Assembly: GCA_012523015.1 (NCBI GenBank)
Contig: JAAYJI010000236.1
Coordinates: 1 to 43,835 of the forward strand
DNA: 43,835 nucleotides
Reading direction: 5' to 3'
DNA from: Candidatus Hydrogenedentota bacterium
Lineage (GTDB): Bacteria > Hydrogenedentota > Hydrogenedentia > Hydrogenedentales > CAITNO01
Positions 3,881 to 43,730 of the stretch are shown here, piece by piece; position 1 is the stretch's first letter, and each line of letters opens with the position of its first letter. The notes under the pieces were generated by a model. That model saw only the letters and a program-made list of their open reading frames with translations, did no database searches and was not told the DNA's origin. The translations under genes and the position numbers were made by a program.

Positions 3881-4876
3881 TTATAACAACGATGCGAGCG
3901 CGTTGAGACCGAGATCATGGAGCAGCCCGTTAGAGGCAAAAAGACCTTCGTTGGCGTTGAGCCGTTTCCCTTGAGAGAAGTCCAAGGTCTTGCCCTTTAA
4001 ATCGGTTATCCTGCCGCCTGCCTCTTCGAGTAGGAGTGAGCCCGCCGCTTGATCCCAAATACACTCACGATAATCGGGCTGAGCAGGGGATAAGAGGCGG
4101 AACAACATTTCAGCGCCTCCCGCGGCCATGAAGGTATATTTTGCTTGGCTGTCCATAGGCAGGTGCCGTTCCTGCGTGATACCGAGCAATTGCCCGAGCT
4201 TTTCCATGGCAGTTACATCGGTGTGGGCTCCTTCATAGGAGCGCATAAGCCGTGCCTCGCTCAAATTGTCGCAAGTGGAAACGCGCATTTCAGTGACGGA
4301 TACATGGTTGTCATTCGACGACGTATACCAAGCGTTGTGTCCCCGCCCTGCCACAGCGACGATTCCCCCGCCTGTGTCGGATGAAGGGTCCTGTAGATCA
4401 AGGACAGGGCAAGCCAAGCCGCCGTAAACAACCGTTCCGTTGCGAATACATGCCAAGGCAATGGCGTATTGTCCGCCTCGGATATAACCTTTGGTTCCGT
4501 CAATGGGATCCAGCGTCCAGAAGTTATCATTAGGCGCGCCCGCGCCGCCGTCGATCCAATCGCAGAGGGCGTTGCCGTTTACCTCGGGAATGAAAGGGCT
4601 AAGGTGGTGCACAATCGTGTCAAGGAGTGCACGGTCTTCTCCGTTGCGCAGGGCTTGCGCGCCTTCCTCGCCAACGAGTACAGCGCCGGGAAAGGCGGCT
4701 TGCAAGCGATACGATGCCAATGCTTGTACGGCGAAGTCTGCAGCGGTCACCGGTGATCGGTCACTTTTAGATAGGCTGCGCAACTGCCCATCTTCCCGTA
4801 TTGCTTGGGCAAGGGCGGCGCTTTCATAGAGCAGCCTTTCAATGAATAGAATTTCTGACGGGGCATCAGGAAACAT
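3881..4876 (-). CDS. 3'(2'),5'-bisphosphate nucleotidase, HAL2/CysQ type
   Basis: This 331-residue Mg2+-dependent, Li+-sensitive phosphatase belongs to the inositol monophosphatase superfamily. KSDRSPVTAADFAVQAL at about residues 37-53 is the HAL2-type opening motif. GEEGAQ holds the first metal-binding acids (E70, E71), and LDPIDGTKGYIRGGQYAIAL around 122-141 holds D123 and D126. The last metal/substrate acid lies in WDQAAGSLLLEEAGG. The DGTKG variant, rather than the DGTxN of inositol phosphatases, points to hydrolysis of PAP/PAPS-like nucleotides in sulfur metabolism. No sulfate-assimilation genes are adjacent. The start at 4876 has a good Shine-Dalgarno (AAAGGAAG). It converges with the NYN gene across 76 bases that show no clear hairpin. 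Confidence 0.87.
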   Translation of the reverse strand: MFPDAPSEILFIERLLYESAALAQAIREDGQLRSLSKSDRSPVTAADFAVQALASYRLQAAFPGAVLVGEEGAQALRNGEDRALLDTIVHHLSPFIPEVNGNALCDWIDGGAGAPNDNFWTLDPIDGTKGYIRGGQYAIALACIRNGTVVYGGLACPVLDLQDPSSDTGGGIVAVAGRGHNAWYTSSNDNHVSVTEMRVSTCDNLSEARLMRSYEGAHTDVTAMEKLGQLLGITQERHLPMDSQAKYTFMAAGGAEMLFRLLSPAQPDYRECIWDQAAGSLLLEEAGGRITDLKGKTLDFSQGKRLNANEGLFASNGLLHDLGLNALASLL

Positions 4877-5154: not shown

Positions 5155-7809
5155 ATGATGAGGAAACATCTCTGGATAGCAGGTCTTGCCTGTCTCATAG
5201 TTACGGTGTCTTTCGCGGTGTATGCCCTTGGCGCAGATGCCGCTGCCGGCGAATTGAGAGAAGCTTCGACGCCTCCCGACGCGATAGAGGATACCACCTC
5301 CTCGCAGGAGGTGTCGCTTACAGATACCTTGCTCAGCGTTGCGAAAGCGGGCGAGTTGTACGCGGCGTTGGATATGGTGAAGGCAGGCGCTAAAGATGAG
5401 TTGCGCGATGAAGAGGGCAAGAATGTGCTTCTCATTGCCGCGGAAAATCAGCATCCTGAGTTGGTCCGCGCCCTGCTCGATGGGGGCGACGATTTGATGG
5501 CGCAGGATTTGTTGGGGAATACAGCCTTGCATCTTGCGGTCAAAGCCAATGACGTATACACAGCGGATATGCTTATTGAAGATGGTATTCCACTGAACGC
5601 TGTCAATTCAGAATTTTATTCTCCGCTCCATGTTGCCGCTGCCGCAGGCAGCTTTGACTGTGTCCGCTATCTTGTGGAGCACGGTGCCAACCCGATGGAA
5701 AGTTTTAATGATGCACTCTATTTGCCTGCTTATACCGTTGCCGGTCAAGCGCGACAGTGGGACGTGACCGCTTATTTCCGCGAGCAAGGCGCTGATATGG
5801 GGCCTTTGAGCAATGCAGGGACGGGCGATATCCGCGCCCTGGAAGAATACGTTGAAAATGAGCCCACCGCCCTTTCCATGGCAACCCGTGTGGGGATCAC
5901 CCCATTGCACAGTGCTGTTGGCGGCAATCAAGTGGAAGCGGTGCGCTTTTTACTCGAACATGATGTTCAACCTGCCCCTTCCTATGAAGGGATAACGCCG
6001 CAGATGTCTGCCGTACGTTTAGGCTATACGGAATGTCTGCGAGCATTCTTTGAGTTTGAAGTGACTCCCAACGATCGCGCGCCCGATTTCTATGGGTACA
6101 CCTTGTTGATGCAGGCAACACGGGACGGTAATGTGGACATGATGCAATTTCTGATTGATCAGGGAGCCGATATGGGCTATCCCTCTGTGCGCGGTGATAC
6201 GGCACTTCACGCCGCGGTGGAATGGGATCAGCCGGAGGCTGCCCTCTTTCTGCTTGACCAAGGATTCATTATTGATATTAAGAACGGCAGCGCCTGTTCA
6301 GCGCTGCATCTTGCCGCGGAAAAGAACAAAATAAAGATGGCACGGTTATTATTGGATCATGGTGCCAGCTTGGATATAACGGATAAGCGCCGCTGGACAC
6401 CGCTGCACATCGCTGTGGACAGTAATCATTTGGATATGATTCAATTGCTGCTGAACCGTGGAGCCAACATAAGCGCTCCCGATAAAGTGGGTGATACGCC
6501 CTTGCTTCTTGCGATACAAAAGAAAGAAGAGAAGGCGGCATTGTTGATGATTGCCAAAGATCCCGATCTTTCTGTTGTCAACGAAAAAGGGGAAGGCCCC
6601 CTGTATCTGGCTTCACGGAACGGGCTGTTAAGCGTGGTGAAGTCGCTTTTAGACAAAGGCGCTCCCGTTGATACGGACGACGACCTCGGTCAGACGCCTC
6701 TCTACGCTGCGCTGCAAAAAGATCATTACGAACTTGCCCGTCTATTAGCCGAGAAAGGTGCTGACCTGCATCGGATGAGTAATCTGGGCGAATCGTTGCT
6801 CTTTCCCGCCGCTTACAGTGAAACCGCCGATGCATTGACGTGGCTTTGCGATGCGGGGCTTGATGTCCATATTCGTGCGGAGAATGGGTTGACGCCGCTT
6901 CATATGGCAGCCCGTTACGGATCGGAAGCGCCTGTTATTTTTCTGTTGGAAAAAGGTGTTGAAGTAAACGCGCAAGATGTGGAGGGGCGGACACCGCTGC
7001 ATCTGGCTTCGGGGAGAGGGCACATTATTAATGTGCAGGAATTGGCCAAAGGCGGTGCCGATCTCTTTTTAAAAGATAAAGAAGATCAATACGCCTTGCA
7101 TGCCGCCGCCCGAAACGGCCATTGGGGACCGGTACAATTATTTCTTGTGCGCGGCATTGATATTAATTCGCCTGACATCCATGGAGATACGGCGCTGCAT
7201 TTGACCGCCCGCGGCGGCTTCCATCGTACAGCGAAACTGCTGCTCGTTCGCGGCGCTGACTTTACACTGTTGAACAAAGCGGGGGAGACGCCTTTGGTAT
7301 CGGCGATGAACGCTTTTGCCACGTTGGACGAAATGGAGGAGCTCAGCTCGTCTCAGTTGGCGAGCAAAAATGCGCTGCGCAGCACCGTCCTCTTTTACGA
7401 AGCGGTCGTGATTGACGAATATCGTAATGCTGTGGAGCGGTCGGATGTAACGTTTTTGAAGCGATTGCTTGCCGTCTATGAAGACTACAAGGACGCGGCA
7501 TGTTTCGGGTGCACGCCCGTGTATCGTGCCGTGCGCAAAAAAGATCTGCCCGTCCTGCAGCTCTTATTGGATCACGGCGCAGATCCTTCTTTATGCGCTT
7601 TGAGTGATGGCAGCCAAAGCCCGCTTCACCTTGCCGTACACGCTCGCAATGCGGATCTTGTGCAAGTCTTATTGGATGCCGGAGCGCCGGCGGATACGCC
7701 TGATGGGCAAGGCATGACCCCTCTAGATTTGGCAAAAAAAGAAATTCTTCCGGAAATTGCAGCGCTTCTTAAAAATGCAGGAGATACCCACACAACTGAA
7801 GAGGAATAA
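5155..7809 (+). CDS. Large secreted ankyrin-repeat protein
   Basis: This 884-residue protein begins with a signal peptide: MRK, a hydrophobic stretch to about residue 24, then an ALG-ADA-like cleavage site. After a short linker, about two dozen ankyrin repeats of roughly 33 residues fill the rest. Typical units read G-x-TPLHxA...G...VxxLLxxGAD, for example GLTPLHMAARYGSEAPVIFL and GRTPLHLASGRGHIINVQEL. Ankyrin solenoids bind proteins; no catalytic domain is visible. The repeats have diverged, so this is an old array rather than a recent expansion. Start may be ATG 5155 or 5158; CAAGGA at 5145-5150 suits 5158 slightly better. The next gene, a membrane metallopeptidase, starts one base after the stop, so the two products probably work together. 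Partner and function are unknown. Confidence 0.9.
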   Translation: MMRKHLWIAGLACLIVTVSFAVYALGADAAAGELREASTPPDAIEDTTSSQEVSLTDTLLSVAKAGELYAALDMVKAGAKDELRDEEGKNVLLIAAENQHPELVRALLDGGDDLMAQDLLGNTALHLAVKANDVYTADMLIEDGIPLNAVNSEFYSPLHVAAAAGSFDCVRYLVEHGANPMESFNDALYLPAYTVAGQARQWDVTAYFREQGADMGPLSNAGTGDIRALEEYVENEPTALSMATRVGITPLHSAVGGNQVEAVRFLLEHDVQPAPSYEGITPQMSAVRLGYTECLRAFFEFEVTPNDRAPDFYGYTLLMQATRDGNVDMMQFLIDQGADMGYPSVRGDTALHAAVEWDQPEAALFLLDQGFIIDIKNGSACSALHLAAEKNKIKMARLLLDHGASLDITDKRRWTPLHIAVDSNHLDMIQLLLNRGANISAPDKVGDTPLLLAIQKKEEKAALLMIAKDPDLSVVNEKGEGPLYLASRNGLLSVVKSLLDKGAPVDTDDDLGQTPLYAALQKDHYELARLLAEKGADLHRMSNLGESLLFPAAYSETADALTWLCDAGLDVHIRAENGLTPLHMAARYGSEAPVIFLLEKGVEVNAQDVEGRTPLHLASGRGHIINVQELAKGGADLFLKDKEDQYALHAAARNGHWGPVQLFLVRGIDINSPDIHGDTALHLTARGGFHRTAKLLLVRGADFTLLNKAGETPLVSAMNAFATLDEMEELSSSQLASKNALRSTVLFYEAVVIDEYRNAVERSDVTFLKRLLAVYEDYKDAACFGCTPVYRAVRKKDLPVLQLLLDHGADPSLCALSDGSQSPLHLAVHARNADLVQVLLDAGAPADTPDGQGMTPLDLAKKEILPEIAALLKNAGDTHTTEEE

Positions 7810-9652: not shown

Positions 9653-10251
9653 CGCAGCACGGCTCCACAGTTTTTAACGACGGCATTAACGACACGATCC
9701 ATCGCTTTTTGTGTATCTTTATCGGTAAGTGTACGTTCGGGAGATTGGAAGAGCAGGCTGAGCGCCACGCTTTTTTTATCAGGCGGCAGCGGTTTCCCCG
9801 AATACACATCAAAGATATTCACTGCTTTTAAGAGTGCGCCGCCTGCATTGGCAGCGGCTTTGATAATTGTTTCTGCAGGAACCGCTTTATCGACGACAAG
9901 TGCAATATCACGCAGCGCCGGCGGATATTGGGGAATGCTTTCGAACTGCGCAGGCGGCAGCGGTTTGGCCAACAAAAAGTCAAGGCTCAACTCGAAGACA
10001 TAGCTGTTTTCGGGCAGGTCCCAATCGCGGGCTACTTGGGGATCCACTTTTCCGAGTTGCCCCAGATCTTGTTTGCGCAATTTGATTGATGCCCGCTGAC
10101 CTTGTTGGAAAGCCGGAGATTCCAAAGTATCGAGTTGGAAAGAACGATTGAAGAAATCGGCGGTAGATTCCAGATAGCCTTTCAAGTCGAAAAAGTCCCA
10201 AGGCCGTTCCGGCGCATTCCACAGGCCGGGAGTAATTCCGCAAAGGAGCAC
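9649..10251 (-). CDS. pheT: Phenylalanyl-tRNA synthetase beta subunit, C-terminal part after an in-frame stop
   Basis: About 200 codons continue in the same frame as the upstream pheT part, only six codons after its TAA. They hold the end of the catalytic-like core (GITPGLWNAPERPWDFFDLK) and a complete FDX-ACB anticodon-recognition domain (about the last 95 residues, with YPPALRDIALVVD and FDVYSGKPLPPDKKSVALSL). Read through the stop, the total is about 797 residues, the normal PheT length. If translated separately the first usable start would be GTG at 10251, with no convincing Shine-Dalgarno. The downstream gene overlaps this stop in ATGA, so the operon relies on ribosomes arriving here. 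Confidence 0.85.
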   Translation of the reverse strand: MLLCGITPGLWNAPERPWDFFDLKGYLESTADFFNRSFQLDTLESPAFQQGQRASIKLRKQDLGQLGKVDPQVARDWDLPENSYVFELSLDFLLAKPLPPAQFESIPQYPPALRDIALVVDKAVPAETIIKAAANAGGALLKAVNIFDVYSGKPLPPDKKSVALSLLFQSPERTLTDKDTQKAMDRVVNAVVKNCGAVLR

Positions 10252-10269: not shown

Positions 10270-12042
10270 TTAGGGTAAAAGTTCATCTTCCACCGGAAGA
10301 TATACAGGCCCAACTTCGAAGATGGCAACACTGTTTGCGCCTCGTTTACAATTGTAGGCGGCGGTGGCGTAGAGAGTAGGTATCAAGGAACTGCGCATGC
10401 CCGCATAATTTTCGGACAGAGGATTTTCCAACATGACCATGGAGGAAGAAGGAGTCTCCAATCGGGCGCGCGACACGTTTTCCCTACTTGAGAAGGACCA
10501 GTTAAGCACTTCTGTAAGGCCTAATGCAGCGAGTCGGTGCCGCAATGCGCGCAAGGTTTTCTCTTGGGGCGCAAAAATTATCTCAGACTGGCGTACAGGC
10601 GGCATAGTGACGGGGATTCGGTCATAGCCGTAATGACGAGCGATTTCCTCAATCAGATCGGCTTCATGGGTCACATCGTGGCGCCACGACGGCACTTCTA
10701 AAAGGCAGTCCTTCTCCCGAACCTGACTTGCGGTGAATCCCAGTTTTTTCAAAATTGCCTGTTGTTCTTCTTTCGCAATTGCCACGCCGAGCAGCCTGTC
10801 GGTCCGATCAAAGCGCAAGCGGACTTGAGGCGCTACGTGTTTTTCAGGATAGGCATCCAAGACGCCCGGCGCTACAGAGGCGCCGGCGAGTTCCTGCATT
10901 AAGGCGGCGGCACGATTTAAGGCGTAGGGCACCATATTGCAATCGGCGCCGCGCTGGATGTTTTGTGCCGCTTCCGTTAAAAGCGCGAGTTTTCGTGCAG
11001 TAGAACGAATGGATCGGGGCGTAAAATAGGCACTTTCGAGAAAGACATGTTTGGTGTTAGCGTCTACTTCGCTGTCGAAGCCGCCCATGACACCGCCCAC
11101 AGCTTGGGGATTTTTGGCGTCAGCGATTACGAGCATATCTTCTGTGAGTGCGTGCTCTTGTTCATCCAGCGTTTTTATGCCTTCTCCCGGTCGGCTGCGC
11201 CGCACCACAATCCGATTTTCGGCGAGTTTATCAAAATCAAAGGCGTGCAGCGGGTGCCCGGTTTCCAACAACACATAGTTGGTAATGTCGACAATGTTAT
11301 TGATAGGGCGTTGACCGGCTGCGATCAGCCGTGCGCAAAGCCAGGGAGGAGAGGCTTGGATAACCACATTGCGCAAGACACGGCCGGCATAGCGGGGGCA
11401 TAAATCCGGGTCTTCAATGGTGACGCCGGAGACTTCTTTGGCTGCAGTGCCTTCCTCGTCTAAGTGAATTTCGGGCAGTTGCAGAGGAAGGTTGTAGTAG
11501 GCGCTCAATTCGCGGGCGACCCCGATCATCCCTGCCCAGTCGCCGCGGTTGGGGGTTACTTCGATTTCGAAGACCACATCATTTAGGCCCAAGACCTCTT
11601 TGATATCGGCGCCGATGGGGGCGTCGGGATCAAGAATCATGAGACCTGCATGCTCTTCTCCCAATCCCAATTCGCGAAGTGAACACATCATGCCGCAGGA
11701 TTGGACGCCCCGCATTTTCCTGTTTCCGATTTTGAAGCCGCCGGGGAGGCAAGATCCATCAATGGCGGTGGGCACTTTGTCGCCGACTTTCATATTTGTT
11801 GCGCCGCAGATAATTTGGAGGGGCTCCTCTCCGCCAATGTTGGTTTGGCATACCACCAGTTTATCGGCGTCGGGATGGGGCTGGATGTCCACGATCTGCC
11901 CCACATAAATATCTTTGATCTCTTTGCCGGGCTCTCGGATCGCTTCAATTTCCATTCCGAGCATGGTCATACGTTCCGCAAGTTCTTCCGTACTCACTTG
12001 CAGCGGCACCAATTCTTTTAACCAGTTCAGTGATATTTGCAT
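10270..12042 (-). CDS. pheT: Phenylalanyl-tRNA synthetase beta subunit, N-terminal part, cut by an in-frame TAA
   Basis: 590 residues of PheT, which with PheS forms the (alpha-beta)2 enzyme charging tRNA-Phe. The N-terminal EMAP/OB tRNA-binding domain (IYVGQIVDIQPHPDADKL, SCGMMCSLRELG) is followed by the B3/B4 editing region (TPNRGDWAGMIGVARELSAY), the B5 domain (VRLRFDRTDRLLGV) and the start of the catalytic-like module (LTEVLNWSFSSRE). It ends abruptly at VYLPVEDELLP with TAA at 10270-10272. The next codons in the same frame read EVPTLAVLLCG, the expected continuation. There is no frameshift and no homopolymer at the site. pheS ends one base upstream of this gene. The break may be a consensus error, a real mutation or recoding. 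Confidence 0.92.
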   Translation of the reverse strand: MQISLNWLKELVPLQVSTEELAERMTMLGMEIEAIREPGKEIKDIYVGQIVDIQPHPDADKLVVCQTNIGGEEPLQIICGATNMKVGDKVPTAIDGSCLPGGFKIGNRKMRGVQSCGMMCSLRELGLGEEHAGLMILDPDAPIGADIKEVLGLNDVVFEIEVTPNRGDWAGMIGVARELSAYYNLPLQLPEIHLDEEGTAAKEVSGVTIEDPDLCPRYAGRVLRNVVIQASPPWLCARLIAAGQRPINNIVDITNYVLLETGHPLHAFDFDKLAENRIVVRRSRPGEGIKTLDEQEHALTEDMLVIADAKNPQAVGGVMGGFDSEVDANTKHVFLESAYFTPRSIRSTARKLALLTEAAQNIQRGADCNMVPYALNRAAALMQELAGASVAPGVLDAYPEKHVAPQVRLRFDRTDRLLGVAIAKEEQQAILKKLGFTASQVREKDCLLEVPSWRHDVTHEADLIEEIARHYGYDRIPVTMPPVRQSEIIFAPQEKTLRALRHRLAALGLTEVLNWSFSSRENVSRARLETPSSSMVMLENPLSENYAGMRSSLIPTLYATAAYNCKRGANSVAIFEVGPVYLPVEDELLP

Positions 12043-36642: not shown

Positions 36643-38010
36643 TCACTCTTGATTAACAGGGTAGCCTTGTTCGCGATATTCCTTGAGGCGGTAGGTGAGG
36701 GTACGGCGGCTGATGCCGAGGGCTTTAGCGGTGTCACTTCGGTTATAAGCATGCTCTTTGAGCACGCGCAGTATAGTTGCTCGTTCCATGGCACTCATGA
36801 CGGTGTCGGCGCCGGTTTCATTCTGGGGCGTTTCCGGCTCAAGGGATTCCTGTTGCACGCGCCGGGGCAAATGTTCGGTGAGGATGACATCGCCTCGGGC
36901 GAGAAGGACAGCTCGTTCGATGGCGTTGCGTAATTCACGCACATTGCCCGGCCACGGGTAGCGTTCCATGCCGGCGATAGCGCCGGGCGAGAAGCGGGGC
37001 TTGCCTTTGCTGAATTCGGCGGCGAAGCGTTGTGCTAGGAGCGGGATATCGGTAACACGTAAACGTAAGGGCGGCAGATGGATTTCCATGACGTTTAGCC
37101 GATAGAAGAGGTCTTCTCGGAATCTGCCTGATTCTACCTCGGCTTCGAGATCGCGATTGGTGGCCGCAATGATTCGAACATCGACCTGGATTTCAGTATT
37201 CGTTCCGATGCGGCTAAAGCGACCGTCTTGGGTGACGCGTAGGAGCTTTGCCTGTAGAGCAGGGGACATTTCACCTATTTCATCGAGGAGCAGCGTGCCG
37301 CCATCGGCTTCTTCGAAGTGCCCGATGCGCCGGGTGAGGGCACCGGTAAAAGCGCCTTTTTCATGGCCGAAGAGCTCGCTTTCCAGCAAAGCTTCCGGTA
37401 TGGCGGCACAGTTTACTTTGATAAGACGTCCATTGGCGCGGGCGCTCCAGCGGTGAACGATGTCTGCGATGACCTCTTTGCCTGTGCCGCTCTCGCCCGT
37501 GATGAGTAGTCGGGTGTCTGATGGTGCGACCAATGCCACCTCTCGGAGAACTTCCTGCATAGCCGCACTTTGGGTGATGATATCTTCGGGGAGCGCGTAT
37601 CCCTCTGAACTTACTTGGGCGGGACCGCTTTCCGACAGCGCCATGCCATGCCGGACGGCTTCAAGCAGTTGGTCTAAGTCAATGGGTTTCTCCAAGTAAT
37701 CCACGGCACCGCTGCGGATAGCACCGACGGCATCTCGTATGTCTGCGTAGGCCGTGACGAGTAGCACGGGCAGGTCGGGGTAGCGCTCCGCCACGAAGCC
37801 GAGCAATTCGAGTCCGGTCATGGCGGGCATGCGCACGTCAGAGATGAGCATGGCGGGTTGGGAGGTTTCGAGCACATGCAGGGCTTCCGAACCGGAGGAG
37901 GCGGTTGTCACGGGAAATCCCTGGCCGGTGAGAAAGGAACGGAGCAGGCTGCGCTGTCCGGGATCGTCATCCACAACGAGAATATCCCGTCGTGCAGCTT
38001 CTTTATTCAT
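36643..38010 (-). CDS. NtrC-family sigma-54 response regulator
   Basis: 455 residues from ATG 38010 (GGAGG six bases upstream). Receiver domain (1-122): acidic pocket LVVDDD (D14-D16), phosphoacceptor D58 in ISDVRMP, and K108. AAA+ domain (about 145-380): Walker A GESGTGKE (172-179), sigma-54 contact loop GAFTGA (219-224), Walker B LLLDEIGE (240-247), then VDVRIIAATNRDLE and an arginine finger region. The C-terminal Fis-type helix-turn-helix (ATILRVLKEHAYNRSDTAKA, then GISRRTLTYRLKEY) binds enhancer DNA. All features for activating sigma-54 polymerase are intact. The start overlaps the kinase stop in ATGAATAA. Likely targets are the sigma-54 promoter at 40677 and perhaps that at 17974. Confidence 0.96.
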   Translation of the reverse strand: MNKEAARRDILVVDDDPGQRSLLRSFLTGQGFPVTTASSGSEALHVLETSQPAMLISDVRMPAMTGLELLGFVAERYPDLPVLLVTAYADIRDAVGAIRSGAVDYLEKPIDLDQLLEAVRHGMALSESGPAQVSSEGYALPEDIITQSAAMQEVLREVALVAPSDTRLLITGESGTGKEVIADIVHRWSARANGRLIKVNCAAIPEALLESELFGHEKGAFTGALTRRIGHFEEADGGTLLLDEIGEMSPALQAKLLRVTQDGRFSRIGTNTEIQVDVRIIAATNRDLEAEVESGRFREDLFYRLNVMEIHLPPLRLRVTDIPLLAQRFAAEFSKGKPRFSPGAIAGMERYPWPGNVRELRNAIERAVLLARGDVILTEHLPRRVQQESLEPETPQNETGADTVMSAMERATILRVLKEHAYNRSDTAKALGISRRTLTYRLKEYREQGYPVNQE

Positions 38011-39697
38011 GATCATCCTCCGACAGTGGCTTTTGTGCGAGTGAAATACCCATGACTCGGAACACAGTACCCCGGTCGCCGGGTCGGCAGTCCACCGTCC
38101 AGTTATGGGCATCGGCGATTTGACGCACTACGGCGAGTCCGAGACCGGTTCCTTTTTCAGAGGTGGTGTAGTAAGGCCGAAACACTTCCTCGCGGTGTTC
38201 TTTGTCAATTCCGGGTCCGTCGTCGCGTACTTCCAGCCACACGGTTTTATTGGGCATCATTCCTTGCGCCACCTCCACGCGCCCGCCATTGGGAACGGCT
38301 TGCACGGCGTTCAGGAGCAGATTGAACAGTGTTTGGCGCAGCATACCTTCATCGGCCTCTACGCATAGTTGCGGCCCCGTTGCCTTCAGCGTAACGTTAT
38401 TCTCTTCGCAGTCAAAAGCGAGAACACCAAAAACGGATTGAACGAGCCCCGTCAAAGCCATGGATCGGAGTTGGGGGCGTATCGGCCGCGCATAGTTTAG
38501 GAACTGGTTAAGCCGGCCTGTAACGCGGTCGGTTTCCTCTGTTATTTTAGAGGCAGTCGCTCGGATGTCCCGGGGAGTGTCTGTGTTGCCGCCGATCATT
38601 TGCGCCATGCCTCTGATTAAGTTCAAAGGATTTTTAGTTTCATGTACCAATCCGGCCGCCGTCACATTCATGTCTCGGAGGCGTGTGGCCGCTTCCCGTT
38701 CATGGATAAGTTGAATCTCGAGGTCGGCGGAGTGTCTGGATGCACGCCACGCCAAGGCGAGCGCCAGACACGCGAGCAATGCGCCGCCCATCACAATTGC
38801 GCGAAGTTGAAAATCTTTTGCCAGAACTGCACGTAGACCGCTGGTGGGAAGGGTGACCAAGAACCAGTGTATACCATGTTCTTTGATCAAGCGTTCATAG
38901 TCCGGTTTGTTCATCCACGGTGGCTGTTCTGGCGGCGGTCCCTGTGGCGGTCCCAGCACGATCATAAGCAGATCGGTCAGTGTTTTAGGATTCATAGGTT
39001 GGCCGGGCAGGATACGTCGAAGCTCTTCCTTGGTCTTTTCACTGACCGCGCCTTCATTAAAGAGAGCCAGTATTTTCTCTGTTTGTGCAGCATCTAGCGG
39101 CTCTTGGGTCATCATTTCAAGAAGAAGATTTCGGCTAGCTTCACTGATAACGCTGTCGAGGTGAGGGTCATCAAGGCTGAGTACCCAGTGTCCCGGTGGA
39201 GGTGAAAGACCTTCGCCCGGAAAATCGCGGTTCAACCCACGCTTCCGATCCCCGGGATGACCGCCAGACCGCTCCATCGGCAACACTGCCGCCCTGCCGC
39301 CGGGCCACTCTGTTCCCGGCCCTAATGCGATGAGATTGGCGAAGGAAGCGGACTGCAGTGTTCGGTATTCATGCTTTTCGAGTAGGACGCCCAGAGCTAC
39401 GGGCAGCGGTTTTCCGGCGGAAGCCACCGTATCTCCCGACGCGTTAAGTAAGACCACGGATTCCAGTTCTGTTGAATTCACCAGTTCGTTCAGAGCCGCT
39501 TCAATCCGGGGTCTGGGGATGAAGAGCATTCTGCCCTGAGATCGAATGACCACACTCAGTGCTGCTGAAAAATCATGGGCGCGATCAGCCAAATTCCTTC
39601 CCGCCAGTTCTTGTACGCGTCGATGTTCATATATCTGCCAGCCCGCTACGGACATCCATATTGCCGCCAGGAAAAGATATATCAGTTTTTTACGCAT
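38003..39697 (-). CDS. Membrane histidine kinase (ZraS/AtoS-like) with a large periplasmic sensor
   Basis: 564 residues from ATG 39697. Helix 1 is at about 5-23 (LIYLFLAAIWMSVAGW) and helix 2 near 310 (AIVMGGALLACLALALAW). Between them lies a periplasmic domain of some 285 residues with a PAS/Cache-like start (LESVVLLNASGDTVASAGKP), a Gln/Glu-rich helical part and a Pro-rich stretch (GPPQGPPPEQPPW). The transmitter has H352 in LVHETKNPLNLIRG, N-box FNLLLNAVQAV, G1 DDGPGID and G2 EKGTGLGLAV. GTG 39742 is unlikely as the start because the predicted -10 at 39745-39750 adjoins it. It overlaps the regulator gene by 8 bases, an exact cognate pair. Confidence 0.94.
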   Translation of the reverse strand: MRKKLIYLFLAAIWMSVAGWQIYEHRRVQELAGRNLADRAHDFSAALSVVIRSQGRMLFIPRPRIEAALNELVNSTELESVVLLNASGDTVASAGKPLPVALGVLLEKHEYRTLQSASFANLIALGPGTEWPGGRAAVLPMERSGGHPGDRKRGLNRDFPGEGLSPPPGHWVLSLDDPHLDSVISEASRNLLLEMMTQEPLDAAQTEKILALFNEGAVSEKTKEELRRILPGQPMNPKTLTDLLMIVLGPPQGPPPEQPPWMNKPDYERLIKEHGIHWFLVTLPTSGLRAVLAKDFQLRAIVMGGALLACLALALAWRASRHSADLEIQLIHEREAATRLRDMNVTAAGLVHETKNPLNLIRGMAQMIGGNTDTPRDIRATASKITEETDRVTGRLNQFLNYARPIRPQLRSMALTGLVQSVFGVLAFDCEENNVTLKATGPQLCVEADEGMLRQTLFNLLLNAVQAVPNGGRVEVAQGMMPNKTVWLEVRDDGPGIDKEHREEVFRPYYTTSEKGTGLGLAVVRQIADAHNWTVDCRPGDRGTVFRVMGISLAQKPLSEDDHE

Positions 39698-39912: not shown

Positions 39913-40608
39913 TTAGTCGGATTCGCTGCGTCGTTGACCTGATTCACCGCGTCGTTGGTCGGGGCCGCCTCGGGAGCCTCGGGGTCCGCGTGGCCCGCCC
40001 ATAGAAGCTCGGGCAGCTCTTAATTGTTCAATGCTTAGCTTACCGGCGTCCTCGGTATCCAATTCTTTGAAACGTTCGCGGCTGGCTTGTTGGTGGACCT
40101 TCAAAAATTCTTCTTCGCTGATTAGATCATCTTTGTTCGTGTCATATTCTTCGAAGGTCGGGAAAGAGCGACGACCGGGAGTATAGGATCTTCTCGGTTC
40201 ACGATCAGAGAGACGTTGCCCTTGTGCTTCCCTATCGGGCGGTGGGGGCGGCGGATTGGCACCGTCACCGCGGCCCATTGCCCTGCCGCGCGGGCGATTC
40301 CCTTGGTTGAAGGGCCTCTCAAATTCTTCTCGGCTCAGGTTGCCGTCATCATTGCTGTCCAGTTGTTGAAAACGACCTTTCATGAGCTTGTCGTTGCCGT
40401 CCACGTATTCTTGAGCACTAACAAAGCCGTCCTTGTCCGCATCAAAATCAGCGGGGTCAAGTCTCATCGGTCGGGTTCCACCTTCGAATCTGTCTTGTGC
40501 CGGTGGTGGCGGCGCTTCGCTCGAATCGGGCTGTGCCCACAGGCTGCCTGTAGCCAGTAAGGCGGCGGTCAGCATAAAACATCCGGTCACCATTACATTC
40601 ACTTTCAT
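39913..40608 (-). CDS. Periplasmic EF-hand protein
   Basis: 231 residues with a signal peptide (MKVNVMVTGCFMLTAALLAT, cleavage after LWA). Two EF-hand pairs follow: DADKDGFVSAQE and DSNDDGNLSREE (about 56-100), then DTNKDDLISEEE and DTEDAGKLSIEQ (about 155-200). Loop 1 is close to canonical; loops 3 and 4 lack the usual Gly at position 6 or an acid at position 5. Between the pairs lies a Pro/Arg-rich linker (GANPPPPPPDREAQG), and the tail is Arg/Gly/Ser-rich. Ca2+ binding in the periplasm is likely. AAAGGAG precedes ATG 40608. It is transcribed from a sigma-54 promoter and followed by the kinase-regulator pair. Confidence 0.88.
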   Translation of the reverse strand: MKVNVMVTGCFMLTAALLATGSLWAQPDSSEAPPPPAQDRFEGGTRPMRLDPADFDADKDGFVSAQEYVDGNDKLMKGRFQQLDSNDDGNLSREEFERPFNQGNRPRGRAMGRGDGANPPPPPPDREAQGQRLSDREPRRSYTPGRRSFPTFEEYDTNKDDLISEEEFLKVHQQASRERFKELDTEDAGKLSIEQLRAARASMGGPRGPRGSRGGPDQRRGESGQRRSESD

Positions 40609-40676
40609 GATGATCTCCTTTCTAAAGGGTTGAGATTATTTTCAAGAAATCGCCGTTGCAATTTCCCTTACACTAT

Positions 40677-40693
40677 AGCAATTATTGTTCCAA
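40677..40693 (-). promoter_or_regulatory. Sigma-54 (-24/-12) promoter of the EF-hand gene
   Basis: On the minus strand TTGGAACAATAATTGCT matches the sigma-54 consensus TTGGCACGRNNNTTGCW, with GG and GC exactly spaced. The -24 GG lies at 40690-40691 and the -12 GC at 40678-40679. Transcription would start near 40666, 58 bases before the ATG. Confidence 0.78.
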
Positions 40694-40764
40694 GTCTTTT
40701 TTTATCAAGACTTAAAAGCGCCTTTCAGAAGTATGGATGTTTGAGAGGACTCGACAACCACCGC

Positions 40765-40815
40765 TTGCGCAAAAATTACCCGGGAAGAAAGGCGGCGCGG
40801 GTCGGATTTGCGCAA
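40765..40815 (-). promoter_or_regulatory. Twin TTGCGCAA palindromes, probable enhancer sites for the NtrC-type regulator
   Basis: TTGCGCAA occurs at 40765-40772 and again at 40808-40815. Centres are 43 bp apart, close to four helical turns, and lie about 102 and 145 bp upstream of the predicted start. Two sites on one DNA face at this distance are the classical arrangement for NtrC-type activators. Both copies share TTGCGCAAA when read in opposite orientations. Which protein binds is inferred from the adjacent regulator gene. Confidence 0.65.
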
Positions 40816-40933
40816 CAAGATTAAGATGAAAGAAACAGTGCGTCTACAACCGCGTCTACAGTAAAGATAACTCTTCTTTCCGGCTTGTCATTCCTTGGAT
40901 TCAAATAAAAGTTGGGGCTGGCGTGCCGACAAT

Positions 40934-42532
40934 TTAATCGTGGGATCCAGAATCCCAACCGCCGCCAAGTGCCTTGATGAGTAAAACAGTGGAGACGAGG
41001 CGTTCTTTAACTGCTTGTACCTCCGACAGTTCATTATTCAGCAAGGTCTGTTCTGCGTTGATAACGTTCAGGTAGTCGATAATCCCTGTATCGTATTGTA
41101 TTTGGACGAGGCGCAAGTATTCCCGTGCTGAGGCAACGGCTTTTTCTCTGGCTTCCGCTTCTTCACTTCGCCCGTGAATATCATTAAGCGAATCCTCTAC
41201 GTCCTTGAAAGCGCTGAGTATACTATTGTGATAGACGGCCAAGAGTTCCTCATATCTTGCTTGGGCTTTTTGTAAATTTGCCTTGAGTTTTCCGCCCTGA
41301 AAAATGGGCAGGGAGATACTAGGCCCGAAAGACCAATTTTTGCTCCTCCAATCCAGGAGATCTTCGAGTTTAGCGCTTTGTACCCCGGCACTGCCCATGA
41401 GTTTAATACTCGGCAAAAAGTCCGCCTGTGCCATGCCGATTTCTGCGCAGGCAGCCACAAGATTTTGTTCGGCTGCCGCAATATCGGGACGGCGACTGAG
41501 CAGATCTGCAGGCAATCCTGCGGGCAGCACAGGAGGGGCTGTGTTCCGAGGATGGGCTTCCAGAGCGAATTCTACGGGCGCCTTTCCAAGCAAAATGGCG
41601 ATAGCATGTTCTAGATCTGCGCGCTGTCTGCGCAGATCGGAGGCTTGGGCATAGGTCGCTTCCAGTTGAATTTCCGCCTGCAGAGCGTTGGTTTCATTGA
41701 CGAGACCGACCTCATATTGTTTTCTGGTCAGCGTTGCCTGTTCTTGATACAGTTCCAGGTTTCGGTTCAAGATCTCCAGTTGCGCATCCAGTGCGCGCAG
41801 GTTAAAATAGTTACGGGCAACATCAGCCAAGAGGGTTTGTCGCATAAGCTCAAGTTCATATACGGACGCCTGCACTTGAGCGCCTGCGGACTCATAGGAA
41901 CGGCGGACACGTCCCCAAAAATCGATCTCATAGGAAAGATCAAAAGGAACTTGAAAACGGTTGCTCGTGGTGGAGGAAGATATTTTTGCGCCCGTGTCAG
42001 TCCGAAGACTTCCCACATTGGGTCTTTCCCCTTGGGCAATGGCGGTGACTGCTCCCAGCATGGTTGATACTTGTCCGAGGGTAGACGAGACTTCTTCAAG
42101 TCCGCCGGATTGGGTTGTAACGGTCTGTGCGGAGGAGCCTGAACGGCTTGCTGTGGGACTCATGGAGATGACAGGATAAAAGCCGCTTTTAACGGATGCT
42201 GCCGATGCGCGTGCTTGGGTCAGTCGTGCGATGGCGGCCTGAAGATCATAATTTGTTTCCTGTGCTTCCTCGCACAGAAGGTTTAAATCGGGATCCTGAA
42301 AAAGACGCCACCAGTCAAGGTTCAACCCGGGCTGCTCTGATTCAATTTCTGTGGCGCGTTTGTAATCTTGGGGCAGATCTAATGACGGGCGTTCATAGTC
42401 AGGGCCGGTCTTGCAAGAAACAATACAAGAGGTCATGAGCAGCAGAAGAAGTGTCTTCAGATAAGAAAAACGTGCTGTGCCACGATCAGAATACGCACCA
42501 ATTATCCGGAATAGTAGAGGGTGATTATTCAT
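40934..42532 (-). CDS. TolC/NodT-family outer-membrane efflux lipoprotein
   Basis: 532 residues from ATG 42532, which overlaps the permease stop within ATGAATAA. The signal has a lipobox-like end (LLLLLMTSCIVSC), then the family opening GPDYERPSLDLPQDYK. Two OEP repeats of coiled-coil and beta-barrel follow, with LARNYFNLR-type and PVEFALEAHPRNTAPPVLPA segments and AGLPADLLSRRPDIAAAEQN, all characteristic of OprM/NodT factors. The trimer would form the outer-membrane duct for the adjacent ABC exporter. A Ser/Thr/Gly-rich insertion near residues 130-190 is longer than usual. No periplasmic adaptor is seen in the part of this cluster inside the window. Confidence 0.94.
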   Translation of the reverse strand: MNNHPLLFRIIGAYSDRGTARFSYLKTLLLLLMTSCIVSCKTGPDYERPSLDLPQDYKRATEIESEQPGLNLDWWRLFQDPDLNLLCEEAQETNYDLQAAIARLTQARASAASVKSGFYPVISMSPTASRSGSSAQTVTTQSGGLEEVSSTLGQVSTMLGAVTAIAQGERPNVGSLRTDTGAKISSSTTSNRFQVPFDLSYEIDFWGRVRRSYESAGAQVQASVYELELMRQTLLADVARNYFNLRALDAQLEILNRNLELYQEQATLTRKQYEVGLVNETNALQAEIQLEATYAQASDLRRQRADLEHAIAILLGKAPVEFALEAHPRNTAPPVLPAGLPADLLSRRPDIAAAEQNLVAACAEIGMAQADFLPSIKLMGSAGVQSAKLEDLLDWRSKNWSFGPSISLPIFQGGKLKANLQKAQARYEELLAVYHNSILSAFKDVEDSLNDIHGRSEEAEAREKAVASAREYLRLVQIQYDTGIIDYLNVINAEQTLLNNELSEVQAVKERLVSTVLLIKALGGGWDSGSHD

Positions 42533-43730
42533 GGCGTAAGGCCTCGATAGGATTAAGCATGGCCGCTTTTCTGGCGGGAAAGAATCCGAAAACGATGCCG
42601 ATGACTCCGGAAAATAGAAAGGATTCCAAGATGATCGGCACATTGAGGATAAAAGGAACTTGGAGCAGGTTGGACGCGGCGAGAGCGGTCATGACTGCTA
42701 AGGCGATACCGATAAGACCTCCAACGGAAGACAAGACAATCGCTTCAACGAGAAACTGGAGCAGCACTTCACGTTCGAGCGCGCCGATGGCGAGGCGGGT
42801 CCCGATCTCTCGGGTTCGTTCCGTAACAGATACCATCATGATATTCATGATACCGATACCGCCGACCAACAGACTCACTGCCGCCACGGCTCCCAACAAG
42901 CCGGTGAGCACTTTGGTGGTACCGGTGAGCATGGTCGATATTTCCTTCATGTCCATAACACTGAAATCGTCTTCTTCCACATCGGACAAATGGCGCCGTT
43001 CACGCATGAGGTAGCCGATTTCAGTATTCATTTTGTCGGTAGATATGCCATCCTTTACAGACAGTCGAATCACATTCACATCCATGGTTCCTGAGATGCG
43101 GCGTTGATACGTTCTCAGAGGAATGATCACGGTATCATCCTGATCGCTGCCCATGGAGGATTGTCCTTTGCTCTCGAGCAGCCCGATGATTTCACAGGAA
43201 AGTTTATTCAGCCTGATCTTGCTTCCAATGGGATTTTGGTGTCCGAAGAGGTTTTCCCACACCGTTGCGCCGATAATGCAGACCGCCGCCCCCGATCGGA
43301 TTTCCGGCTCGGTGAAGCTTCGCCCATCCTCTATTTTAAGATTGCTGACGTCAAAATAGCGTTCCGTTGTACCCGTGACCGTAGTAGACCAGTTTTCATT
43401 GCCGTAGATAGCGGTTATCGCGCTGGCGGATGTGGGAGCCACTGCCCTTATAGACGGTATTTCGCGTTCAATGGCTTCTGCATCGGCCAGTTTAAAGGGC
43501 GCGCCACCACCGCCTTGTCCGGGTCCCATGCGTCGTCCGGGCATGACCATCATCAGGTTGCTGCCGAGACTGGAAATCTGGTCGGTCACCTGCCGAGTTG
43601 CGCCGCCGCCAAGGGTGACCAAGCTGATTACAGCGCCTACGCCGATGATAATACCCAGCATGGTCAGGAATGAACGCATCTTGTTGCGGTAGAGTTCACG
43701 CAAGGCAAGTATGAATGCATTGGAGATCAT
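42525..43730 (-). CDS. MacB-type ABC transporter permease, second cluster
   Basis: 401 residues: helix 1 in MRSFLTMLGIIIGVGAVISL (about 18-37), the MacB core domain to about residue 270, then three helices with GIGIMNIMMVSVTERTREIG, TRLAIGALEREVLLQF and IGIVFGFFPARKAAMLNPIE. A Gly-rich loop (RRMGPGQGGGGAP, about 66-78) sits near the start of the periplasmic domain. It starts inside the stop of the ATPase gene (TGATG) and overlaps the outer-membrane factor gene by 8 bases. It is paralogous to the permease at 28.3-29.7 kb but only moderately alike. Confidence 0.95.
   Translation of the reverse strand: MISNAFILALRELYRNKMRSFLTMLGIIIGVGAVISLVTLGGGATRQVTDQISSLGSNLMMVMPGRRMGPGQGGGGAPFKLADAEAIEREIPSIRAVAPTSASAITAIYGNENWSTTVTGTTERYFDVSNLKIEDGRSFTEPEIRSGAAVCIIGATVWENLFGHQNPIGSKIRLNKLSCEIIGLLESKGQSSMGSDQDDTVIIPLRTYQRRISGTMDVNVIRLSVKDGISTDKMNTEIGYLMRERRHLSDVEEDDFSVMDMKEISTMLTGTTKVLTGLLGAVAAVSLLVGGIGIMNIMMVSVTERTREIGTRLAIGALEREVLLQFLVEAIVLSSVGGLIGIALAVMTALAASNLLQVPFILNVPIILESFLFSGVIGIVFGFFPARKAAMLNPIEALRHE

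Follow-up and report, generated by a model that had tools for sequence, protein, structure and literature searches.

Two identical copies of an 8-base palindrome, TTGCGCAA, lie within a single intergenic region of a contig from a Candidatus Hydrogenedentota bacterium, and the question raised by this locus is whether they mark an enhancer for an NtrC-type activator and, if so, which sequence unit and which spacing matter. The stretch of DNA that was analysed, referred to here as the window, comprises 43,835 nucleotides. The two copies occupy positions 40765-40772 and 40808-40815, 43 bp or 4.1 helical turns apart from start to start, and both reside in the 325-base intergenic region described in the first-pass annotation, which is the gap (40609-40933) between a gene for an EF-hand protein and a tolC-like gene. 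That annotation had counted three copies in the window; there are in fact four, the copy at 11369-11376, which joins the already known one at 10073, having been overlooked. Four copies are unremarkable (expectation 1.98; at least four in 12 of 100 shuffles), in agreement with the earlier view that lone copies can be explained by chance. The accompanying impression that the pair itself is not random also held, as TTGCGCAA is found twice with a gap of 20-45 only here in the whole 3.7-Mb genome, and two copies within the intergenic region were not obtained in any of 5000 dinucleotide shuffles. The pair is real and not a product of chance.

All genes flanking the intergenic region are encoded on the minus strand, in the order MacB permease, TolC-type protein, intergenic region, EF-hand protein, kinase and regulator. 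The relevant features are:

42525-43730, minus strand: MacB-type ABC permease
40934-42532, minus strand: outer membrane efflux protein of TolC/NodT type, encoded directly upstream and in this genome a candidate target at most
40798-40814, minus strand: enhancer site 1 (promoter-distal), 17-bp dyad TGCGCAAATCCGACCCG, centred at 40806 and 115 bp away from the first G of the -24 GG
40766-40782, minus strand: enhancer site 2 (promoter-proximal), 17-bp dyad CGGGTAATTTTTGCGCA, centred at 40774 and 83 bp away from the first G of the -24 GG
40676-40693, minus strand: sigma-54 -24/-12 promoter TTGGAACAATAATTGCTA (GG-N10-GC), predicted +1 near 40666
40614-40621, minus strand: ribosome-binding site AAAGGAGA ahead of the EF-hand gene
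39913-40608, minus strand: exported EF-hand protein of 231 aa, encoded by the first gene of the cluster and carrying a hydrophobic, signal-like stretch at its N-terminus
38003-39697, minus strand: membrane sensor histidine kinase, 564 aa, nearest NCBIfam model ZraS, below cut-off
36643-38010, minus strand: NtrC-type response regulator with receiver, Sigma54_activat AAA+ domain containing GAFTGA, and Fis-type HTH

The letters of TTGCGCAA are not kept exactly in relatives, and the 8-mer was rejected as the operator unit. What emerges from orthologous upstream regions is a 17-bp dyad, TGCGCAA-NNN-TTGCGCA, of which CTGCGCANNNNNTGCGCAG and GGGCAANNNTTGCCC, two forms recurring upstream of the relatives' promoters, are registers. 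Most of the sites used for training, including the first ten pairs, had been selected visually at a stage when no matrix existed, and two procedures guard against any bias from this choice: a de novo dyad count and a genus-held-out test with free gap. When all 4+4 dyads with spacers of 0-15 were counted in 12 orthologous upstream regions, GCAA-N3-TTGC came out on top, occurring in nine of the 12 as opposed to a shuffle mean of 0.075, and the dyads ranking after it are nested parts of the same element; the highest count reached by any dyad in 200 shuffles was 3 of 12. Each TTGCGCAA copy is one half of a 17-bp dyad, the other halves being degenerate in this species. The left half of site 1 falls within the upstream copy (40808-40815) and its right half is degenerate, while the right half of site 2 falls within the second copy (40765-40772). 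With the genus-held-out matrix, site 2 takes rank 2 among 43817 positions, and site 1 takes rank 46 with 6.9 bits, which is weak. Each dyad has a TTGCGCAA copy as its outer half, so that the spacing of 43 bp is composed of 32 + 11. The two sites are in helical phase, as had been proposed, but the spacing with biological relevance is not 43 bp; it is the 32 bp between the centres of the 17-bp dyads, which correspond to three turns and equal the spacing at glnA.

As a pair, the two sites are conspicuous. When the genus of the window was withheld from training, the matrix still identified them as the best pair in the window at gaps of 31-35, and their score was not reached in any of 5000 shuffles. 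Pairs of at least 20 bits are absent from 854,798 bases of unrelated contigs, the background being about one pair of at least 18 bits per 855 kb. A sequence-only pair model built from ten rows, the window among them, finds this locus alone in the 3.7-Mb genome, with the next match at E 0.96. A scan of the genome with single sites, allowing three mismatches, proved too noisy for naming targets (290 matches versus 128 with the reversed pattern). Several further sites were noted in the window: a second, weaker dyad pair at 41780-41831 (19.9 bits, gap 33), located some 1 kb upstream of the enhancer within the tolC-like coding sequence, another dyad at 41617-41635, also within that coding sequence, and the top single 19-mer for the matrix, TTGCGCAGGGCTTGCGCGC at 4644-4662 (16.7 bits), which has no partner at 31-35 bp.

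Both dyads are located upstream of the TTGGAACAATAATTGCTA promoter of the cluster for the EF-hand protein, the sensor kinase and the NtrC-type regulator. Besides RpoN, the genome encodes roughly seven or eight genuine sigma-54 activators. The components of a sigma-54 enhancer-promoter unit are present: phased dyads at a flexible distance, a -24/-12 element downstream of them, and the sigma factor with its activators. As a control, the Escherichia coli glnA region was measured alongside the window. There, the NtrC boxes TGCACCAACATGGTGCT and AGCACTATATTGGTGCA are separated by 32 bp, and 115 and 83 bp lie between their centres and the first G of the -24 GG; the dyads of the window match the glnAp2 enhancer in the distance between the sites, in both distances to the -24 GG and in the type of promoter. 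A sigma-70-like element, TTGATA-16-AATAAT, at 40681-40708 on the minus strand overlaps the -24/-12 promoter and could provide basal expression of kinase and regulator.

The first-pass annotation had tied its proposal to conservation in relatives that keep the same three genes, and here the outcome is divided: the 8-base pair changes its letters, but the paired dyad is present in every available upstream region. The cluster of EF-hand, kinase and regulator genes is syntenic in most kinase-positive members of the family, and several further families of the class show the same synteny. The kinase is encoded in 19 genomes of the class, and 18 of these have pair and promoter; the remaining one is G009, where the contig ends too early. 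Each relative with an available upstream region has a -24/-12 promoter at the orthologous position, often a perfect one such as ATGGCACGGCCCTTGCTC in G011. When genus-held-out matrices were allowed any gap from 12 to 100, the best pair had a gap of 31-34 in 18 of 19 regions including the window (32), the exception being G007, where the free-gap search favours 60; the gaps in G006, G024, G056, G049, G067 and the second regions of G011 and G020 do not count as independent support because these regions were found by searches that themselves limited the gap, whereas the G000 and G005 regions were found by gene orthology. Outside the class (genomes of L032-L034), the pair model gave no convincing match, the best E being 0.09.

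Across the regions, the distance from the pair to the -24 element varies between 36 and 503 bp. Same-genus relatives carry extra DNA between pair and promoter, with 237 bp to the -24 element in G006 and 503 bp in G005; the nearly identical G004 has the same pair as G005. An apparent absence of sites in G004 and G005 up to 220 bp from the promoter, for which the look-alike TTGCATGTGTATTACGCAA had been considered, was discarded, the true pair being located about 500 bp upstream. The stretch of about 500 bp between enhancer and promoter in G005 (L112 8662-9166) and G004 (L120) contains long inverted repeats, CCCAGGGTTGCGGTAC...GTACCGCAACCCTGGG, and is probably an inserted element. Tolerance of such variable distances is expected of a looping enhancer and not of a promoter-proximal operator or an RNA hairpin. 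Paired dyads, promoter and conservation alike support the proposal that an NtrC-type enhancer precedes a sigma-54 promoter here, and we consider it highly probable (about 87%) that the pair is a bacterial enhancer consisting of two TGCGCAA-NNN-TTGCGCA-type dyads on one helix face, 32 bp apart and 83 and 115 bp upstream of the sigma-54 -24 element.

Two explanations dispense with a regulatory protein altogether. A coincidence of two copies of a CG-rich 8-mer would fit with the fact that lone copies are no commoner than expected and with the weaker second dyad pair in the tolC coding sequence (41780/41813), but it is no longer credible in view of the empty result from 5000 shuffles and from 855 kb of other contigs, and is already refuted by conservation of the paired dyad over at least 12 genera. 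Only slightly less improbable is that the palindromes form the arms of an RNA hairpin, a terminator or attenuator that ends the tolC transcript. The region is foldable (z -1.7 and -1.9), and G007 and G008 carry both TGCGCA elements within a longer inverted repeat; yet these folding energies are less than 2 s.d. from those of shuffles, palindromic sites pair with themselves by construction, and a terminator search of the region returned no terminator-like site. Moreover, other relatives have sites in the form of internal dyads that lack a long stem, the dyads are conserved without any site-to-site pairing in G002, G010 and G011, and a distance to the promoter that ranges so widely does not suit a hairpin.

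A more serious alternative, though still an unlikely one, accepts the sites but assigns them to another protein, either a different sigma-54 activator or a sigma-70 regulator, instead of the neighbouring response regulator. About seven additional sigma-54 activators in the genome and the sigma-70-like element overlapping -24/-12 speak in its favour. On the other hand, pairs combined with a strong sigma-54 promoter are confined to genomes that possess the kinase and the regulator, and matches of the model in kinase-less genomes lack a sigma-54 promoter. G006, G024 and G056, the three newly found genomes with pair and strong promoter that did not contribute to training, are all kinase-positive, for which the probability by chance is about 0.003 (9 of 58), and the second targets in G011 and G020 adjoin the regulator gene. 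The regulator of the same cluster is the presumed enhancer-binding protein, a choice made from gene neighbourhood and co-occurrence only, because of the other activators encoded.

Further targets emerged from the pair model and its follow-up. Pair and -24/-12 element precede TolC-MacA-MacB genes in G011 (C22:42634) and MacA-MacB genes in G020 (C56:55178). In G024, G056 and G049 they are located before small exported proteins heading type II secretion operons, and in G067 a type II secretion operon under such a pair and promoter is headed by an EF-hand protein; kinase and regulator orthologs are likewise present in G024, G049, G056 and G067. The small exported proteins at the head of the secretion operons (L195 4460-5152, L196 2326-2958, L198 about 7023-7600) share a DDEW/NDEEW-like motif, those of L195 and L196 also have a conserved C-terminal LTLRQEA stretch, and a Pfam search with two of these proteins returned no family above cut-off. 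In the window, the promoter of the efflux operon is out of view because the contig ends upstream of the MacB-type permease. A second MacA/MacB-type ABC operon is encoded on the same contig (26982-29657, plus strand), where the pair model finds no enhancer pair.

How does the system relate to known ones? The published NtrC box is the 17-bp TGCACCAnnnTGGTGCA (PMC8743547). The present dyad has the same 17-bp frame, the outer TGC/GCA and the central AnnnT, but TGCGCAAnnnTTGCGCA differs from TGCACCAnnnTGGTGCA at three inner positions per half, with GCA/TGC replacing ACC/GGT, and the trained matrix with its inner GCA/TGC falls outside the NtrC box. The earlier statement that the half-site is not that of NtrC is supported, although the operator remains close to the NtrC box. 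Furthermore, the genes concerned are related to the envelope and not to nitrogen. The regulator is 44% identical to E. coli NtrC and resembles the AtoC/NtrC family in its receiver, its AAA+ domain with GAFTGA and its Fis-type HTH, but it stays below the curated cut-offs of the AtoC, NtrC and ZraR equivalogs (NtrC models TIGR01818, 427.6 bits versus 558.6, and PRK10923, 379.7 versus 620; ZraR model, 413 of 760 bits). Its recognition helix SRR(T/A)L is invariant in all regulator orthologs, compared with GRNTL in NtrC and TRKTL in ZraR.

In enterobacteria, ZraPSR combines a small exported accessory protein, a membrane kinase and a sigma-54-type regulator that controls its own cluster (PMC7657598). 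The same three components occur here, with a gene for an exported EF-hand protein, for which metal binding is putative, followed on the same strand by those for kinase and regulator. There are also differences: an EF-hand or other small exported protein takes the place of ZraP, the kinase reaches 150 of the 479 bits required by the ZraS model, the genes are all on one strand and not divergent, the operator is different, and the system is coupled to MacAB or type II secretion operons. Because kinase (ZraS) and regulator (AtoC/NtrC/ZraR) fall below the curated cut-offs, we describe the module as ZraPSR-like in its working without claiming membership, and because export operons of relatives carry the same enhancer, it is most appropriately viewed as an envelope-sensing system that resembles ZraPSR. 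The specificity of the operator is new; the system is of a known kind. Literature searches combining EF-hand, two-component and enhancer-binding protein, or the suspected lineage and sigma-54, gave no match in the literature collection searched, and a search for TTGCGCAA yielded mainly unrelated eukaryotic or oligonucleotide papers.

From this arrangement, a mechanism can be proposed. Upon a signal, the sensor kinase would phosphorylate the response regulator of the same cluster, the Fis-type domains of which would occupy the two sites as side-by-side dimers. The AAA+ domains would then assemble, contact RNA polymerase-sigma-54 at 40676-40693 by looping and open the promoter at the expense of ATP. 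The output would be transcription of the EF-hand gene together with those for the kinase and the regulator, so that the latter would activate its own expression (positive autoregulation), and in related species the same enhancer would drive MacAB(-TolC) efflux or type II secretion operons.

With operator, promoter and target list, a sigma-54 system is now described in a class known here only from genome assemblies. The geometry known from glnA of E. coli reappears here under another recognition word, and the change of the half-site from ACC to GCA beside the aligned helices GRNTLTRKL (NtrC) and SRRTLTYRL (present regulator) opens the sequence specificity of NtrC-type Fis domains to direct testing. 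Through the targets, efflux and type II secretion are connected with an exported protein of calcium type. Tentatively, and at somewhat less than even odds, the system may represent a class-wide, previously undescribed sigma-54 regulon, in which the exported EF-hand protein, a kinase whose extracytoplasmic region is large, and the NtrC-type regulator would form a calcium- or metal-tuned envelope loop that switches on MacAB-TolC in some families and type II secretion in others via the shared word TGCGCAAnnnTTGCGCA.
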